A stretch of 41,637 bases of DNA from NCBI GenBank assembly GCA_001801685.1, contig MGYJ01000078.1, forward strand, positions 190,598 to 232,234, written 5' to 3'. This DNA comes from Gammaproteobacteria bacterium RIFCSPHIGHO2_12_FULL_63_22 (GTDB lineage: Bacteria; Pseudomonadota; Gammaproteobacteria; Xanthomonadales; Xanthomonadaceae). A program made the position numbers and the translations under genes. Positions 25,558 through 32,476 of this stretch are shown piece after piece (within the stretch, counting starts at the first letter, position 1; each line of letters opens with the position of its first letter). The notes under the pieces are model-generated. The model ran no database searches. It was given only the letters and a program-made list of their open reading frames with translations, and had not been told where the DNA came from.

Positions 25558-26712
25558 ATGGATCTCAACCATTACCTGCAGATGCTTGCCGACCGTTCGG
25601 CGTCCGACTTGTTCCTCAGCCCGGGCGCGCCGCCCAACATCAAGATCGAGGGCCTGACCCGACACGTTGGCACCAAGCTGCTGACCGCGCTGGACGTGCG
25701 CGACATGGCCTATTCGGTGATGAACGAGCGCCAGCAGGCGCAGTTCGAGGATGAGTGGGAAATGAACCTGGCGCTGGCCATGGGCGACATCGGCCGCTTC
25801 CGCATCAACGTCTATCGGCAGCGCGGCGACATCGCGATGGCGGTGCGCTATGTCACCAACAAGATTCCTTCCATCGAGGAACTGAATCTTCCGACCTTGC
25901 TCAAGGACCTGATCATGCTGCCGCGTGGGCTGATCCTGTTCGTGGGCGCGGCCGGTTCGGGCAAGTCCACCACCATGGCCTCGATGATCGATTACCGCAA
26001 CCAGAATCGCACCGGCCACATCCTCACCGTGGAAGAGCCGATCGAATACATGCATTCGCACAAGCAGTCGGTGGTGGACCAGCGTGAAGTGGGCCTGGAC
26101 ACACGCACCTATGCCACCGCCCTGAAGAATGCGATGCGCGAGGCGCCGGACGTGATCATGATCGGCGAAATCCGCGATCGCGAAACCATGCAGCAGGCCA
26201 TCACCTACGCCGAAACCGGCCACCTGTGCCTGTCCACCCTGCATGCCAACAACGCCAACCAGACGCTCGACCGCATCATCAACTTCTTCCCGGAAACCGC
26301 GCGCACCCAGGTCCTGCTGGACATGTCGCTCAACCTGAAGGCGGTCATTTCGCAGCGACTGCTGAAGAGCGTGCACGCCAACGTGCGGCGCGTGCCGGCG
26401 GTGGAAGTGCTGCTGTCGTCGCCCTACGTGTCCGACCTGATCATCAAGGGCGAGATCGGCGCCATCAAGGAAGCGATGAAGCACAGCACCGAAATCGGCA
26501 TGCAGACCTTCGACGAGTCCTTGTTCCGCCTTTTCGCAGCGGGCCAGATCAGTTACCAGGACGCCATCGAAGTGGCCGACTCGCGTACCGACCTGGCGCT
26601 GCGGATTCGCCTGCAAGGGCTTGCGCCCGAGGGCGTGGTGGACAACGAGATGGCGATGGAGGAAATGCCACCGCCGAAGGACGAGGCGCGCGGCGGTCGC
26701 ATCGGCGGCTGA
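25558..26712 (+). CDS. pilU: Type IV pilus retraction ATPase PilU
   Basis: This 384-aa PilT/PilU family ATPase has Walker A GAAGSGKSTT (about 131-140), the Asp box ILTVEEPIEYMH, Walker B VIMIGEIRDRETM (about 198-210) and the His box LSTLHANNANQTLDRIINFFP. N-terminal MDLNHYLQMLADRSASDLFL aligns with P. aeruginosa PilU, supporting this start although no Shine-Dalgarno is visible. The long acidic/Pro tail after the core fits PilU, not PilT. PilU drives pilus retraction together with PilT, which is normally adjacent but is missing here. TATATT at 25516-25521 is a possible -10. Confidence 0.93.
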   Translation: MDLNHYLQMLADRSASDLFLSPGAPPNIKIEGLTRHVGTKLLTALDVRDMAYSVMNERQQAQFEDEWEMNLALAMGDIGRFRINVYRQRGDIAMAVRYVTNKIPSIEELNLPTLLKDLIMLPRGLILFVGAAGSGKSTTMASMIDYRNQNRTGHILTVEEPIEYMHSHKQSVVDQREVGLDTRTYATALKNAMREAPDVIMIGEIRDRETMQQAITYAETGHLCLSTLHANNANQTLDRIINFFPETARTQVLLDMSLNLKAVISQRLLKSVHANVRRVPAVEVLLSSPYVSDLIIKGEIGAIKEAMKHSTEIGMQTFDESLFRLFAAGQISYQDAIEVADSRTDLALRIRLQGLAPEGVVDNEMAMEEMPPPKDEARGGRIGG

Positions 26713-26754
26713 TGCGGTTTTCGCGCGCGGCGTATTTTCGGCTATCTTTCGCGC

Positions 26755-27372
26755 ATGCATGCACAGCCCGGCACGGGCCTCCACGACGATGATGAAACCG
26801 GGCAGGCCGAGCTGCAGGCCGTGCTGTCGCGCATCGCCGATCGTGATGAACAGGCGCTCGGCCGCTTCTACGACCTGACCCTGTCGCGCATCTACGGCCT
26901 GATCCTGCGGGTGGTGCGCAATCCGGCGGATGCGGAAGAGGTGGTAGGGGATGTCTACCTGCAGGTGTGGGAAAAAGCCTGCGACTTCCGGTCCGAGCGG
27001 GGCTGCGTGCTGGCCTGGCTGAAGACCCTGGCCTGGAGCCGGGCCGTGGACCGCCAGCGCCGGGGCCGGAAATACGCCATGGAGGTCGAACTGCATCCAG
27101 AGGGCACGGAACCCGCGTATACGGAATGTGAAGGCCACGATGCCGAAGCCGCGCTGATGGCCTGGTCGTCGGCCGATGCCGTCGCCAAAGCCTTCCAGGT
27201 CCTGTCCGATGTACAAAAACAAATCCTTACCCTGGCCTTCCAGCAAGACATGAGCCACCAAGACATCGCCCAACAGACCGGCCTGCCCCTGGGCACGGTG
27301 AAGTCGCACGCGCGCCGCGGCCTGGCGGCGTTGCGCACGGCGCTGGGCGGAGGGAGCAGCGACGATGTCTGA
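26755..27372 (+). CDS. ECF RNA polymerase sigma factor (partner of ChrR-like cupin)
   Basis: This 205-aa sigma factor has region 2 (LSRIYGLILRVVRNPADAEEVVGDVYLQVWEKA, then AWLKTLAWSRAVDRQRR) and region 4 (LSDVQKQILTLAFQQDMSHQDIAQQTGLPLGTVKSHARRGLAALR). There is no sigma region 1 or 3. It overlaps the cupin gene by 8 nt (ATGTCTGA, 27365-27372), the usual sigma/anti-sigma coupling. Three copies of TGCATCCAGA-N14-CGTA nearby are its likely targets, one of them inside this gene. ChrR-linked group IV sigma factors use a similar -35 (TGATCC) and respond to singlet oxygen or organic peroxides. No copy of the motif lies upstream of this gene itself. Confidence 0.92.
   Translation: MHAQPGTGLHDDDETGQAELQAVLSRIADRDEQALGRFYDLTLSRIYGLILRVVRNPADAEEVVGDVYLQVWEKACDFRSERGCVLAWLKTLAWSRAVDRQRRGRKYAMEVELHPEGTEPAYTECEGHDAEAALMAWSSADAVAKAFQVLSDVQKQILTLAFQQDMSHQDIAQQTGLPLGTVKSHARRGLAALRTALGGGSSDDV
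27092..27121 (+). promoter_or_regulatory. Predicted ECF promoter P3 inside the sigma gene
   Basis: TGCATCC (27092-27098), 17 nt, CGTATA (27116-27121). It shares the block GAACTGCATCCAGA with promoter P1 at 30 kb although it lies within coding sequence. It points at the cupin anti-sigma gene, 237 nt beyond the expected start, and would give the sigma factor a feedback brake. Confidence 0.65.
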
Positions 27373-27832
27373 GCACGACGACGCCCTGCTGCTGGCCGCA
27401 CTGGCGGGCCTGGTGCCGGACGCCGAACCCGCTGCCGACGCGCGCGGCCGCATGCGCGCCGCGCTGATGGCGAAGGTGTCGAAGCCGGCGCCGACCACGC
27501 ATGTGCTGCGGGCCGACGAAGGCGAGTGGAAGCCGCTGCTGCCGGGTATCCACATCAAGACCCTGCGCATCGACCGCGAGAAGGGCACGCAGACGACGTT
27601 GTGGCGCGTGGATCCGGGCGCTCGCGTGCCGCCGCATCCGCATTCGCACGAAGAAGAGTGCCTGGTGATCGAAGGTTCGATCATCCAGAACGGCATCGAA
27701 TACTTGCCGGGTGATTACCTGCTGGCCGACGCGGGTGAAAAACACGCGCCCTTCGATTCCCCGCGCGGCGCGCTGTTCCTGATCCGCGGCGAATTGGTGC
27801 CCGATGTGTCAGTGCTGAAGCGGCTCGGGTAG
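27365..27832 (+). CDS. ChrR-like cupin protein, probable anti-sigma factor
   Basis: This 155-aa protein has a helical N-terminus (DDALLLAALAGLVPDAEPAADARGRMRAALMAKV) followed by one cupin barrel. Cupin motif 1 is HPHSHEEECLVIEGS, with a His/His/Glu metal site; motif 2 is PGDYLLADAGEKHAP. ChrR proteins bind sigma-E through an N-terminal zinc domain (His, CxxC) and sense through the C-terminal cupin. Here that zinc motif is missing and the helical part is short, so sigma binding may use another surface. Coupled to the sigma gene by an 8-nt overlap. Its last 24 nt overlap the 3' end of the TPR gene on the other strand. Confidence 0.85.
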   Translation: MSEHDDALLLAALAGLVPDAEPAADARGRMRAALMAKVSKPAPTTHVLRADEGEWKPLLPGIHIKTLRIDREKGTQTTLWRVDPGARVPPHPHSHEEECLVIEGSIIQNGIEYLPGDYLLADAGEKHAPFDSPRGALFLIRGELVPDVSVLKRLG

Positions 27833-29095
27833 GCGGCTGGCGAAGACCGCGGGGCAGGACGTCGCCAGCGAGGCCAGGTCTTCCATTTCCGGCGGCTGCA
27901 GTCCGCTGCCCATCGCCAATTGCCGGGCCGCGCACGCTTCCGCGCGGGATCCTGCCGCCTCTGCCGCAAGCGCAAGCAGGATGTAGCTGCCTACGTCCTG
28001 GCGCAGCTTGCTGTTCTGCTGCGCCAAGGCAAGTGCACGCGCCGGTTCGCCGCGATCCAGGTAAAACCCGATTGCGTGTTGCGCGAAAGCGGCGGGGTAT
28101 TTCGCGACCAGCCGCGACCAGCCTTCGCTCGCGCGCGCATCGAGCCGTGCGGCGAGCGAAGCATTGCCCGCGTCGCGTTCCAGGCCGGCCAGCGCGCCGA
28201 TGAATTCCGGGCTGCCGGTGTCGGCGATCACGCGCGCATAGAGTTCGCGCGCCACCGCGAAACTTCGTAATTGCGTCTGGGTTTCGGCCAGATGTTCGGT
28301 GGCCAGGGTGAAACCCGGCAAACGGTCGTGCGCCGCCTTGAAGAACAGCGCGGCATCGGCATGCCGGCCATGGCGGAGCAGGGCGATGCCCTGTTGCACG
28401 TGCAGCCAGGCCAGCGGCATGGGGCTCGAGTCGGTGAACAACGCTTGCGCGCGCCGGAACTGGGCGCTTGCGCCGGCCAGGTCGCCCTTCTGCAGTAGCA
28501 GGTTGCCGCGGAATGCGATCTCGTAGAAACCTCCCTGCGGATCCGTGCTGCGCGAAAAATCCTCGCGCAACAAGTCGTAACGGCCGGTGGCCAAGGAGAT
28601 TTCCCGACGCGCTTCCGCCAGGGCACCCGCCTTGGCAGGATTTGCGCTTGCGACGGCATCGAGGTCGGCGGCAGCTGCGGTGAAGCGATGGAAGCCGGCC
28701 AACACGGTCGCGCGCAAAGCCAGTGCTTCGGCATTACGCGGCGATTGGGCGAGTGCCGCGTCCAGAAGTCCGAGTGCGTGCTCCGCATCCGCCAGCTTGC
28801 CGCGAATCCGATAGCGGTGGTACAGCGCGCCCGCCTGCGAAACCTGCAGGTCGGCGCGTGCATTACGACGATTTGCGGCAGCGAGTGCATCGATGCGCGC
28901 GTCCAGGTTGCCCAGGTAGATGTCGCCCGACGTGGTCTGGATATCATCCAGTCCTGCCGGCCAATTCTGGGCCCGGGCCGGGACGGGCGTTACGCCCGCC
29001 GCGGAGTTAGCAGTCGCGCGCGCTTCGTTCGCAATTCCAAAGCCCGTTATCAGCAGCGGCGAAACCAGTAAAACAATGCGAACGAAGCGGCGCAT
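27809..29095 (-). CDS. Exported TPR-repeat protein
   Basis: This 428-aa protein has an N-terminal signal sequence (RRFVRIVLLVSPLLITGFGIANEARA) and then helical repeats throughout. TPR-like units include LADAEHALGLLDAALAQSPRNAEALALRA, GDLAGASAQFRRAQALFTDSSPMPLAWLH and GRHADAALFFKAAHDRLPGFTLATEHLAETQTQL. It should be a periplasmic protein-binding scaffold. It begins 9 nt after the DUF4331 gene, so the two are one operon under promoter P1. Specific function is unknown. Its 3' end overlaps the convergent cupin gene by 24 nt. Confidence 0.82.
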   Translation of the reverse strand: MRRFVRIVLLVSPLLITGFGIANEARATANSAAGVTPVPARAQNWPAGLDDIQTTSGDIYLGNLDARIDALAAANRRNARADLQVSQAGALYHRYRIRGKLADAEHALGLLDAALAQSPRNAEALALRATVLAGFHRFTAAAADLDAVASANPAKAGALAEARREISLATGRYDLLREDFSRSTDPQGGFYEIAFRGNLLLQKGDLAGASAQFRRAQALFTDSSPMPLAWLHVQQGIALLRHGRHADAALFFKAAHDRLPGFTLATEHLAETQTQLRSFAVARELYARVIADTGSPEFIGALAGLERDAGNASLAARLDARASEGWSRLVAKYPAAFAQHAIGFYLDRGEPARALALAQQNSKLRQDVGSYILLALAAEAAGSRAEACAARQLAMGSGLQPPEMEDLASLATSCPAVFASRLPEPLQH

Positions 29096-29104
29096 GGTCA
29101 GTCC

Positions 29105-30163
29105 TCAGTTCGGGTTGCCAAGGAAGGGGAAGTCCGACAGGAAGAGGCTGTCGTTGGCGACGAAATCACTGACGCCCGGGCCGACCACGGCGCCCAGGGT
29201 GTCATCCATCACGTCGCGCGCCAGGGTACGGCCACCGCATTGGCCGGCCACGCCGAGCTCAACCGCAAGGTAGGCGTCGCAGGCGGCAACCTGCGTATCA
29301 ATCTGCAGGCGGTCGTCCACCAGGATCGAAGCCAGCACACCCGAGGGCGCCAATGCGTTGCCGGTGACGCCGTCCAGCGTGTCCAGCGCGGCGAGGTTGC
29401 CGGCCATCTCGGCCTGGAACTCACCCGCCCAATTCGCCGGCGAGGCCGAGGCGTTGTAGGCGTCCTTCTTGCCAGTGCTGGCCAGCAGGTCGATCAAGGC
29501 CGTGTTGATGGCCGGACGGCCCATGCGGTCGATCTGCGTGCTGGTGCCGAGGCGTTCGTCGTCCACGCGCGCCGTGGAGGCATAGACCTTCAGTACCGGC
29601 GCGGCGCCTTTGGCAGTCACGCGCTCGCTGCGAATGCCCAGCACGATGGCCATGCCGTTCAAGCCGTTGAAGAAATTGAGGCCCGGGTTGGTGAAGGAGG
29701 GCGTCAGCGTATCGCGAGTGGTGTTGAAGGCCGCCAGGTCGAAGAAGAATGGGTCGTCGCGCAAGCCGGCGAACACACGCAGGTGCTGGCCGCCGACGAT
29801 GGCGCCTTGCGCGCCCTTCGCGGCGAGGCCGTTGTTACCGACGCATTGCACTTCGCCCACCTTCTTGAAACGGCAGGTGATGAGGGTTTCATCGCCGGTG
29901 ATGCCGTTGTCGATGTGGAAGCGATAGGCCACCGAGTTCGAGAATTGGGTCGCGCTGGTGGCCAGCGGGATCAGCGTCGCGGCGACGATCAGTTCGCCCG
30001 AATCGTTGGGGTTGATGAAGGTATAGACGTCGTTGATGTCGGCGGCCGGGTCGGTCTTCACCGTCGGCGAGTCGAGGTGGTCGGCGGCGTTCGCCGTCGG
30101 CGCGATGGAAGCGAGCGCTGCTGCAAGCGCCAGTGCAATGCTTGTCGAAGTGAGTTTTGACAT
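29105..30163 (-). CDS. DUF4331 family exported protein
   Basis: This 352-aa protein has a clear Sec signal (SIALALAAALASIAPTANAADHLDSP). The mature part has the DUF4331 opening ADHLDSPTVKTDPAADINDVYTFINP, then FNGLNGMAIVLGI and a RPAINTALI stretch late in the domain. The family is periplasmic or extracellular and often lies near ECF sigma genes, but its biochemical role is not known. A strong GGAGAGGA ribosome-binding site precedes the ATG. It is the first gene of the P1 operon, followed by the TPR gene, and divergent from the COG4315-DUF3034-globin operon. Confidence 0.9.
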   Translation of the reverse strand: MSKLTSTSIALALAAALASIAPTANAADHLDSPTVKTDPAADINDVYTFINPNDSGELIVAATLIPLATSATQFSNSVAYRFHIDNGITGDETLITCRFKKVGEVQCVGNNGLAAKGAQGAIVGGQHLRVFAGLRDDPFFFDLAAFNTTRDTLTPSFTNPGLNFFNGLNGMAIVLGIRSERVTAKGAAPVLKVYASTARVDDERLGTSTQIDRMGRPAINTALIDLLASTGKKDAYNASASPANWAGEFQAEMAGNLAALDTLDGVTGNALAPSGVLASILVDDRLQIDTQVAACDAYLAVELGVAGQCGGRTLARDVMDDTLGAVVGPGVSDFVANDSLFLSDFPFLGNPN

Positions 30164-30210
30164 GAGTCCTCTCCGTTGGGGGGGCAGCCGTGAATGCGAC
30201 TGTCAGCAGC

Positions 30211-30240
30211 CTTACGCGAGCCCCTTCGAATCTGGATGCA
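30211..30240 (-). promoter_or_regulatory. Predicted ECF promoter P1 (DUF4331-TPR operon)
   Basis: On the minus strand TGCATCC (complement of 30234-30240), 17 nt, CGTAAG (complement of 30211-30216). The full -35 block is TGCATCCAGA, the same as in P2 and P3. The leader to the DUF4331 ATG would be about 40 nt. Confidence 0.8.
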
Positions 30241-30344
30241 GTTCACGAAAACACCTTCACGCATGCATCACGCCGCGGTCCATGTTGCAGCGCGGGAGAT
30301 TCCTTCACGCCGATTTGCCGCCTGTCGGCACACCGTGAATCCGC

Positions 30345-30374
30345 TGCATCCAGAAGCGCACCAGCGCTCGTATA
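30345..30374 (+). promoter_or_regulatory. Predicted ECF promoter P2 (COG4315-DUF3034-globin operon)
   Basis: TGCATCC (30345-30351), 17 nt, CGTATA (30369-30374). It has the same 10-nt -35 block and spacing as P1, divergently oriented and about 105 nt away. The leader to the ATG at 30419 would be about 38 nt. GGGGAGCGAC supplies the ribosome-binding site. Confidence 0.8.
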
Positions 30375-30418
30375 GGCAGTGACGTGGCGATGGCCGCGGC
30401 CAATTCCAGGGGAGCGAC

Positions 30419-30895
30419 ATGATCAAATCCATATTGTTGGCCTGCGCACTGTCGTGCGCGGCTGATTCGGCCTTGGCGCAGGACGCCACCGCAACGGCGC
30501 CATCCAGCGATCCTCCGATTCGCAAGCTCAACGGCATGCTGGTGGATATCAAGGGCCGCGGGCTTTACACCTACGACAAGGACAAGACGCCGGGCAAGAG
30601 TGACTGCGACAACCAATGCCGTTTCCTGTGGCCGCCCTTGAAGGCTGATCCAGGCGCCGTGCCGAAGGGGCCCTTCACGCTGGCCGTGCGCAGCGACGGC
30701 AGCAAGCAATGGGCCTTGCGCGGCAAGCCGCTCTATCGCTGGGCGTCCGACAAGAAATACGGCGACGGCGGCGGCGATGGCGTCAGCGATGTCTGGCGCC
30801 TGGTGCGCGTTGCACCACCGAAACCTGCCGCATCCGCCGCTGCGCCGGCTTCCGCCGCGCCCGCGCCCGTTGCTGCCAAGCCTGCCTCCAACTAA
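30419..30895 (+). CDS. COG4315-type secreted-repeat protein (PF03640-like)
   Basis: This 158-aa protein has a signal peptide ending at SALA-QDAT. The mature part carries the lipoprotein_15/secreted-repeat pattern: LVDIKGRGLYTYDKDK, then SDCDNQCRFLWPPL with a Cys pair, and KPLYRWASDKKYGDGGGDGVSDVW. The C-terminus is a Pro/Ala-rich tail. Function is unknown; homologues are found with ECF regulons and electron-transfer or oxidative-stress genes, and the conserved Trp/Tyr/Asp residues suggest ligand or metal binding. First gene of the P2 operon; the DUF3034 gene starts 3 nt after its stop. Confidence 0.85.
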   Translation: MIKSILLACALSCAADSALAQDATATAPSSDPPIRKLNGMLVDIKGRGLYTYDKDKTPGKSDCDNQCRFLWPPLKADPGAVPKGPFTLAVRSDGSKQWALRGKPLYRWASDKKYGDGGGDGVSDVWRLVRVAPPKPAASAAAPASAAPAPVAAKPASN

Positions 30896-30898
30896 ACC

Positions 30899-31822
30899 AT
30901 GGACACCAACATGATCGATTCGAATGACCTTGCGCGCCCGCGCCGCGCTGCCTTGTTCCTCGCCATCGCGATGGCAGCTCCCGCTGCACTCGCGCAAGAC
31001 AGCAGTGACGACAGCGACTTCGATACCGGCGGCAAGTTGTTGCTGACCGGCGGCGTCACGCAACTCGAAGGTGCCGCCGGTGGCGGCCTGACGCCGTGGG
31101 CCGTGATCGGCGGCTACGGCTCGCGCGAACAGATCGGCGCCAATGCCTTCTACACCCGCGTGAATGTCGGCGACTACCACCTCGACGATGCCGGCGTGCT
31201 GATCGGTTTCTACGACCGCGTCGAACTGAGTTACGCGCAACAGCGCTTCGATACCGAACAGGTGGGCGCAGCGCTGGGGCTGGGCGAGGGCTTCACCTTC
31301 AAGCAGGACGTGATTGGCCTGAAGGTGCGCGTGGCCGGTGACGCAGTGCTCGATTCCGACAGCGCCATGCCGCAGATCGCGGTCGGCCTGCAATACAAGA
31401 AGAACAACCAGGGCGCCGTGCTCGACTTCATCGGCGCGAAGGATGATTCGGGCGTTGACGTTTACGTGACCGCGACCAAGTTGTTCCTGGCCCAGGGTGT
31501 GCTGTTGAATGGCACCGTGCGATTCACCAAGGCCAACCAGATCGGCATCCTGGGTTTCGGCGGCGACAAGAATGACAGCTACAAGCCGCAGTTCGAATTC
31601 TCGGCGGCGTATCTGTTGACGCGCAAACTCGCCATCGGCGCCGAATACCGCATGAAGCCCGACAACCTCGGCATCGCCCGCGAGGACGACTGGTTCGATG
31701 TGTTCGTCGCCTACGCGCCCACCCGCAATGTGTCGGTCACCCTGGCTTACGCGGACCTCGGCAACATCGTCATCAAGGACAACCAGCGCGGCCTGTATGC
31801 GTCGCTGCAGGTTGGCTTCTAA
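30899..31822 (+). CDS. DUF3034 family outer-membrane protein
   Basis: This 307-aa protein has a signal peptide (RRAALFLAIAMAAPAALA). The mature part opens with GGKLLLTGGVTQLEGAAGGGLTPWAVIGGYG, the DUF3034 hallmark, and alternates short amphipathic strands up to LYASLQVGF. The terminal Phe is the usual signal for BAM-assembled beta-barrels, so an outer-membrane barrel is likely. Substrate is unknown. The start at 30899 lies 3 nt after the preceding stop; an alternative ATG at 30911 is possible. Middle gene of the P2 operon. Confidence 0.88.
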   Translation: MDTNMIDSNDLARPRRAALFLAIAMAAPAALAQDSSDDSDFDTGGKLLLTGGVTQLEGAAGGGLTPWAVIGGYGSREQIGANAFYTRVNVGDYHLDDAGVLIGFYDRVELSYAQQRFDTEQVGAALGLGEGFTFKQDVIGLKVRVAGDAVLDSDSAMPQIAVGLQYKKNNQGAVLDFIGAKDDSGVDVYVTATKLFLAQGVLLNGTVRFTKANQIGILGFGGDKNDSYKPQFEFSAAYLLTRKLAIGAEYRMKPDNLGIAREDDWFDVFVAYAPTRNVSVTLAYADLGNIVIKDNQRGLYASLQVGF

Positions 31823-31843: not shown

Positions 31844-32476
31844 ATGATCATTTCGAAAAATACGTGCCTATCGTTCGCCCTGGCCGCGTTGCTGATCGCG
31901 GTCGCGCCCGGCGCGATGGCGCAGCAGGCGCCCACGCCGACGACCGAGGCTGCGCCGACGGAGACCGCGACCGCGGAAGCCACCGACGACCTGGACATCG
32001 CCGAAGCCGACGCAGCGCCGCCCGCCGATGCCACCGCCGCTGCGAAGGAAGCCACTGGTGAAACTGCCAGCACGGAACGCGACCCCACCGCCGCCAACCC
32101 CGCGCCGGCCGATCCGTCGTTGCTGCCGGTCTACAAGGAATTCGGCGAGATGGCCGGGCTCACCGCCTTGATGGACGACTTCATGGTCATCCTGCTGGCC
32201 GACGAGCGCACGCGTCCGTTCTTCCAGGACGCCGACCAGCCGAAGATCAAGAAGCTGCTGGCCGAACAATTCTGCGTCATTTTGGGCGGACCGTGCACGT
32301 ACAGCGGTCGCGACATGAAGTCCTCGCACAAGGGCCTGGACATCGGCCGCGGCCACTTCAACGCGCTGGTGGAAGATTTGCAGATTGCGATGGACAAGCG
32401 CGGCATTCCGTTCCGCGCGCAGAACAAGCTGCTGGCCAAGCTCGCCCCGATGCATCGGGAAGTCGAAACCAGGTAG
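31844..32476 (+). CDS. Exported group 1 truncated haemoglobin-like protein
   Basis: This 210-aa protein has an N-terminal signal (SFALAALLIAVAPGAMA-QQ), then an 80-residue Ala/Thr/Pro/Glu-rich linker, then a globin of about 110 residues (PVYKEFGEMAGLTALMDDF ... FRAQNKLLAKLAPMHREVETR). His162 in SSHKGLDIGRGHFNALVEDL is the expected proximal haem ligand. At the B10 position the usual Tyr of group 1 globins (DFY) is Met (DFM), so the distal pocket should differ in O2/NO handling. A globin exported to the periplasm on a linker is unusual. Last gene of the P2 operon. Confidence 0.87.
   Translation: MIISKNTCLSFALAALLIAVAPGAMAQQAPTPTTEAAPTETATAEATDDLDIAEADAAPPADATAAAKEATGETASTERDPTAANPAPADPSLLPVYKEFGEMAGLTALMDDFMVILLADERTRPFFQDADQPKIKKLLAEQFCVILGGPCTYSGRDMKSSHKGLDIGRGHFNALVEDLQIAMDKRGIPFRAQNKLLAKLAPMHREVETR

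Follow-up and report, generated by a model that had tools for sequence, protein, structure and literature searches.

Can a sigma factor be wired so that it raises the synthesis of its antagonist and not its own, by means of a promoter placed within its own coding sequence? This question is raised by a locus in a stretch of 41,637 nucleotides (nt) from Gammaproteobacteria bacterium RIFCSPHIGHO2_12_FULL_63_22 (contig MGYJ01000078.1, positions 190,598 to 232,234 of the forward strand), the whole of which is here called the window. The locus contains a gene for an extracytoplasmic function (ECF) sigma factor, followed by a gene for a cupin protein that is its putative anti-sigma factor. Signalling through ECF sigma factors is very common in bacteria, and many of these factors boost their own synthesis. 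Here, the sigma factor appears to read the promoter-like element TGCATCC-N17-CGTA and to drive two operons together with the cupin gene, the latter from inside the sigma gene itself, in a feedback loop that would be negative only; judging from sequence, we give this reading a probability of roughly 0.7.

Results

Three promoter-like sites at one locus

A pattern scan of the window for TGCATCC-N{15,19}-CGTA returned exactly three matches, where chance would supply 0.05, and none of 100 dinucleotide shuffles gave three or more. All three belong to one ECF sigma/cupin locus, all read TGCATCCAGA, and in each the spacer from TGCATCC to CGTA is 17 nt. Two occupy the divergent intergenic region 30164-30418. 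The third is in the sigma gene, with about 245 nt between it and the ATG of the cupin gene, whose start overlaps the sigma stop codon. The sites and the two genes are:

26755-27372, plus strand: ECF sigma factor gene, 205 amino acids, with regions 2 and 4 (Pfam PF04542, PF08281)
27092-27119, plus strand: TGCATCC-N17-CGTA, promoter-like site within the part of the sigma gene that encodes the region 2-4 linker (motif match; in frame it reads LHPEGTEPAY)
27365-27832, plus strand: cupin gene (ChrR cupin-like domain, PF12973, 70.9 bits), putative anti-sigma factor
30213-30240, minus strand: promoter-like site of the DUF4331-TPR operon (motif match; 50 nt from the end of CGTA to the ATG)
30345-30372, plus strand: promoter-like site of the Lipoprotein_15-DUF3034-globin operon (motif match; 47 nt from the end of CGTA to the ATG)

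The sequence-only reading of this DNA had named the copies at 27092 (plus), 30240 (minus) and 30345 (plus) with their fixed gap, had placed two of them at divergent operons and one inside the sigma gene upstream of the cupin gene, and had seen no CGTA at that distance from any other TGCATCC; the scan confirms all of this, three being the total for N15-19. The 14 nt that it described as common to two copies were also found on direct inspection, GAACTGCATCCAGA being identical at 27092 and 30240. Its further remark, that the -35 element resembles that of ChrR-linked sigma-E, agrees with the RpoE2 sites of Shewanella, TGATCC-N16-CGTA (PMC4336711; statements on published systems here and below refer to the available parts of the cited reports). 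Among relatives, the motif also stands ahead of the DUF4331 gene in two loci (L065 and L076) and ahead of Lipoprotein_15 or DUF3034 in many.

The site lies inside the sigma gene in close relatives

Genome draws at four taxonomic levels, overlapping in part, were searched for the cupin. It was present in 38 of 299 genomes for the order (E <= 1e-10), 53 of 369 for the class (E <= 1e-12, profile), 23 of 395 for the family (E <= 1e-18) and 1 of 398 for the phylum (E <= 1e-18), this last being the window's own. A scan of genome contigs with the bare sigma protein as query yielded 55 loci, two of which (L080 and L081) are close relatives. We scored 71 sigma genes by their best 11-base match (TGCATCC plus CGTA, spacer 16 or 17) within the gene and over the 300 nt upstream of it, and grouped them by the profile score of the cupin partner: at least 130 bits (n = 38), below 130 bits (n = 27) or no cupin found by the distance rule (n = 6). 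Dropped from the set were three duplicates (L149, L150 and L145, from the same genomes as L080, L081 and L207), L092 (a sigma gene with no cupin found), second, weak sigma open reading frames, four loci with a cupin but no close sigma gene by the distance rule (L063, L066, L078 and L079) and two whose sigma gene lies outside the fetched stretch (L225 and L227). The sigma gene of L059 (8241-8896) is split by a frameshift and has the internal site at 10/11; it was included in the 71-gene count and excluded from the tree described below.

At the fetched loci, the motif is again found in the part of the sigma gene that encodes the region 2-4 linker. In the group with strong cupin partners, 34 of the 38 sigma genes carry the internal site, at the same place, with at least 10 of 11 bases, three more carry it with 9, and one has none; all 37 copies have the N17 spacer and an intact CGTA. 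None of the 38 has a copy with at least 10/11 in the 300 nt in front, and two have one with 9/11. The distribution differs among the 27 genes with weaker cupins: a single gene (L070, which groups with L061 on the tree) carries it internally, and front copies occur in 9 at 10/11 or better and in 16 at 9/11 or better. Among the six genes with no cupin found, the site is inside in two and in front in one at the 10/11 level. A match of 10/11 arises in 0 to 0.6% of trials with shuffled upstream DNA. Among the front sites (ATCC-N16/17-CGTA), the spacer is mostly N16 in Gammaproteobacteria, and in Acidobacteriota it is mostly N17. A later family search yielded eight new evaluable strong-cupin sigma genes, with the internal N17 site in six, a degraded one in one (L224) and none in one (L226); a ninth sigma gene, paired with a weak cupin (L229), has the site in front.

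In the window itself, the best TGCATCC-N16/17-CGTA match in the 300 nt before the sigma gene is only 7/11, and a core scan that covers the TGATCC form found no ATCC-N15..19-CGTA in the 400 nt before it. Directly 5' of the sigma ATG, at 26710-26735, stands a weak, off-spacing TGATGC-N15-CGTAT, the TGA of which is the stop codon of the preceding gene; it is possibly a remnant or a chance match. The promoter-like intragenic copy is kept in many related bacteria, and in more distant ones a copy often precedes the sigma gene; these front sites, and their resemblance to Shewanella RpoE2 promoters, make the internal site look like the same kind of promoter, relocated.

In one locus (L210, 576-1893, plus strand), sigma and cupin share one open frame, either a natural fusion or a sequencing slip. 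Despite this, L210 keeps an internal site, CGCATCC-N17-CGTATAC (10/11), which could be a source of free cupin.

How might such a site act? In Corynebacterium glutamicum, a SigH-dependent promoter inside sigH drives rshA only, and the sigH-rshA pair is transcribed from sigma-independent housekeeping promoters (PMC3489674); such a layout thus functions in another bacterium. The internal site also sits in the path of the polymerase that transcribes the sigma gene, and binding of sigma-RNA polymerase there might act mainly as a roadblock or an interfering start that lowers sigma transcription, the effect on the cupin being minor. Direct repression by sigma-E at its own sites has been described in Streptomyces coelicolor, with a transcription barrier as one proposed possibility (PMC10771440). 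However, in a scan of both strands of L042-L079 and of part of the window, every intrasigma copy points toward the cupin gene, and the sole experimental precedent, sigH-rshA, drives the anti-sigma gene. We therefore consider a roadblock improbable as the principal role of the site, and possible as an extra effect on the sigma factor's own transcription.

The internal site appears to be held at the DNA level

The linker peptide [HN][PTL]x6Y is carried by 37 of the 38 strong-cupin sigma genes, and its codons are unusually uniform. The codon at the His position is CAT in 36 and AAT in one, never CAC; the codon before Tyr is NCG in all 37 (GCG 24, ACG 7, TCG 4, CCG 2), with the residue varying among A, T, S and P; and Tyr is TAT in 34 and TAC in three. 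Background usage in the same genes, site included, is 54% CAT for His and 44% TAT for Tyr. Synonymous recoding with the genes' own usage would be expected to leave 15.8 genes at 10/11 or better and 3.8 at 11/11; we observed 34 and 29. In this test, on which we rely, the genes were chosen by cupin score and the place by the protein pattern. An earlier recoding test (30 genes picked for the motif; expected 2.1) and log-probabilities for 40 genes selected with a relaxed motif are partly circular. When the 159 columns of a 31-gene codon alignment are ordered by synonymous conservation, pre-Tyr comes 1st, His 3rd and Tyr 7th; this ranking is also partly circular, 30 of the 31 genes having been picked for the motif and L074 added. 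In two later genomes, the codon before Tyr is CCG (Pro), a residue new at that place, with CG retained.

Further copies lie outside the sigma genes. The 32 internal-type loci, several of which are short fragments, hold 29 of them within 6 kb of the sigma gene, distributed over 25 loci. In 17 of the 29, the base after CGTA is A or G, the in-frame equivalent of which would be a stop codon. Tyr is invariant because the TA of CGTA, in the frame of the sigma gene, can give only Tyr or stop.

The internal copy thus looks to be held at the DNA level. Since NCG is fixed while the residue varies, CAC is absent and exact matches exceed the expectation from synonymous recoding, the linker peptide LHP(E/D)...(A/S/T/P)Y is probably a translated promoter.

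Might the peptide LHPE......AY instead be selected as protein, for example as a docking site for the cupin, with the DNA likeness as a by-product? ECF linkers can contact anti-sigma factors, and the pattern, which 37 of 38 close sigma proteins have, is not seen in those distant proteins whose linkers were aligned. A protein motif, however, would not account for codons that are fixed where the amino acid allows a choice (CAT 36 against no CAC, NCG in 37/37, TAT in 34/37), for exact matches above the recoding expectation, for a spacer constant at 17 nt although the intervening residues vary, or for the recurrence of the same 11 bases outside the sigma gene, in the window within an intergenic stretch. 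A motif of the protein only is disfavoured on codon choice, and we hold this explanation to be quite unlikely. That the internal promoter was selected for also yielding a shorter product, such as free sigma region 4, is very unlikely. In its favour, an in-frame ATG follows within 45 codons of the -10 element in 27 of 40 genes; against it, the other 13 lack one when ATG starts only are counted, so that an in-frame internal ATG is not universal.

Distribution of the motif in whole genomes

In the 4.26-Mb genome to which the window belongs, the 14 fixed bases of TGCATCCAGA-N14-CGTA match four times, and a reversed-pattern control does not match at all. The fourth site (C7:5250, L062 5250-5277, minus strand) is probably due to chance; it lies antisense inside a hemD-like frame, about 80 nt before a divergent thioesterase-like open reading frame (both named by eye). 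The looser TGCATCC-N15..19-CGTA shows no enrichment in this genome (8 matches, 7 for the reversed control); what stands out is the cluster of three N17 copies together with the AGA extension, not the looser pattern.

Across 61 whole genomes, TGCATCC-N17-CGTAT has 23 matches, of which 13 are in sigma genes of the family, two at the adjacent operon and eight elsewhere, and these eight do not exceed the 15 matches of the reversed pattern. The matches of the 14-base pattern in three genomes (G038, G046 and G055) lie away from their cupin loci. The enrichment that the sequence-only reading had named as support, in genomes holding the sigma-cupin pair, is thus seen, but it is limited to this locus. 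A scattered regulon is unsupported, and a local regulon of three candidate sites, as that reading proposed, is supported at the sequence level.

Origin of the internal site

With the linker columns removed, a tree of 61 sigma proteins requires three changes of the internal or front label; shuffled labels require 20.5 on average. Constraining the internal type to one clade is not rejected, narrowly (approximately unbiased test, p 0.056), and the tree neither demonstrates nor rejects a single origin. We tentatively favour one origin with losses, because place, frame and spacing are the same.

The proteins of the locus

The sigma protein, with its 205 residues, matches PF04542 and PF08281/PF04545 above their cut-offs and TIGR02937 at 70.9 against a cut-off of 42.9, as an ECF sigma factor should. 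Its nearest solved structure by sequence is SigK (4nqw, E 4e-29), followed by RpoE (2q1z, E 1.7e-18).

The barrel of the cupin belongs to the ChrR cupin-like family, the PF12973 match beginning at residue 46. His91, His93, Glu97 and His127 are invariant in 20 aligned cupins, as expected for a cupin metal site; we take them to correspond to the ChrR ligands. The structural model has two N-terminal helices followed by the barrel (mean predicted local distance difference test score 79.3, lower in the helical part), and Foldseek with this model returned other cupins first, with ChrR (2q1z) at rank 8. The helices, and the absence of Cys before residue 99 in the window cupin, indicate that it is not a ZAS anti-sigma factor. 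Its putative role as the anti-sigma factor of this sigma is suggested by the gene pairing, the cupin fold and analogy. In a related locus (L064, 9474-10192), two cupin genes of this family are neighbours in convergent orientation.

The two operons comprise the following genes:

27809-29095, minus strand: TPR-like protein, second gene of the DUF4331 operon (weak TPR matches under Pfam cut-offs)
29105-30163, minus strand: DUF4331 protein (PF14224, E 4.6e-34)
30419-30895, plus strand: Lipoprotein_15 secreted-repeat protein (PF03640)
30899-31822, plus strand: DUF3034 protein (PF11231, E 1e-110)
31844-32476, plus strand: bacterial-like globin with a long N-terminal extension (PF01152, residues 96-207)

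The TPR-like gene still adjoins DUF4331 in L065 and L076. The long N-terminal stretch of the globin is rich in Ala, Thr and Pro, and its beginning is signal-peptide-like by eye, which suggests an exported globin.

Discussion

In the mechanism that we propose, TGCATCC-N17-CGTA would be the promoter read by this ECF sigma factor, which would drive the DUF4331-TPR operon, the Lipoprotein_15-DUF3034-globin operon and, from the promoter within its own reading frame, the downstream cupin gene. Release of the sigma factor by the cupin would then yield more cupin and no extra sigma, a negative-only loop that limits the response; the sigma factor itself would be made from a separate, sigma-independent promoter or by read-through. 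The linker peptide would be mostly a by-product of promoter retention. We speculate, given the likeness of the cupin to ChrR, that the regulon protects against oxidative stress.

Several points weigh against this reading. All 20 cupins behind the cupin profile are partnered by sigma genes that have the site (degraded in one), and the 130-bit line was set after the data were seen, so that the grouping is not fully independent of the motif. The -35 element is degraded in L074, L188 and L224; L226 lacks an internal site and is preceded by a 9/11 match; L052 has a 9/11 match in front besides its internal site; and, even at the 9/11 level, no site precedes 11 of the 27 distant genes within 300 nt. 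The relatives share ancestry, and the recoding and codon counts are non-independent trials. The internal type, with its three label changes, is not one clean clade on the sigma tree. The cupin has no ZAS-type zinc motif and scores far under the ChrR family cut-offs (TIGR02451 37.4, cut-off 124.5). Finally, the TGATGC-N15-CGTAT element before the sigma gene may leave room for some autoregulation.

Among known systems, sigH-rshA is similar in having an ECF sigma gene, then an anti-sigma gene (putative in our case) and a sigma-internal promoter. It differs in the type of anti-sigma factor and in its unrelated GGAATA/GTT-type promoter, and the available part of the report mentions neither deep conservation nor a linker peptide footprint (PMC3489674). 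RpoE-ChrR (ECF11) resembles the present pair in a cupin partner that overlaps the sigma stop and in a promoter, TGATCC-N16-CGTA, near TGCATCC-N17-CGTA (PMC4336711). Unlike here, the promoter of Shewanella RpoE2-ChrR lies in front of the sigma gene (TGATCC-N16-CGTATT before rpoE2, one of two RpoE2 promoters with mapped starts), RpoE2 thereby boosting its own synthesis, and the regulon differs, with photolyase, cfa and pgpD (PMC4336711). ChrR has a ZAS domain (PMC8999054); of the ZAS and cupin-like domains of an ECF11 partner, the window protein has the cupin-like one and lacks ZAS. Nor is there an ECF11-like front promoter, the best match in the window being 7/11 and none of the 38 close genes reaching 10/11; the site is inside the sigma gene, with N17. 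SigK-RskA (ECF19) is close by sequence, SigK being both the best match among solved structures and the highest-scoring NCBIfam model. RskA, however, is a membrane protein, the partner here is a cupin, and the match falls under the NCBIfam cut-off (NF007228, 154.4 against 226), which places the pair outside ECF19.

A literature search of titles and abstract openings found no description of this system, which ECF classification work or papers outside the search results may nevertheless mention. The layout of an intragenic sigma-dependent promoter for an anti-sigma gene is already known from C. glutamicum sigH-rshA. What is apparently new is a conserved promoter within the sigma coding sequence that seems constrained as DNA and that would replace one in front. 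We lean towards the view that an autoregulatory promoter once upstream of the sigma gene moved into the coding sequence, that this turned a loop in which sigma makes both sigma and anti-sigma into one in which it makes only anti-sigma, and that the promoter has been kept across families of an order, strictly enough to dictate a ten-residue stretch of the linker.

If true, the locus would represent a conserved switch to negative-only feedback through a promoter placed in coding sequence, and its relatives, with the promoter in front or inside, would provide natural paired designs for testing the effect of loop layout on the stress response. The findings also suggest that what reads as a protein motif in a flexible linker can be the imprint of a promoter, which calls for caution in motif-based protein annotation, and they prompt us to look for intragenic promoter sites in further sigma/anti-sigma pairs.

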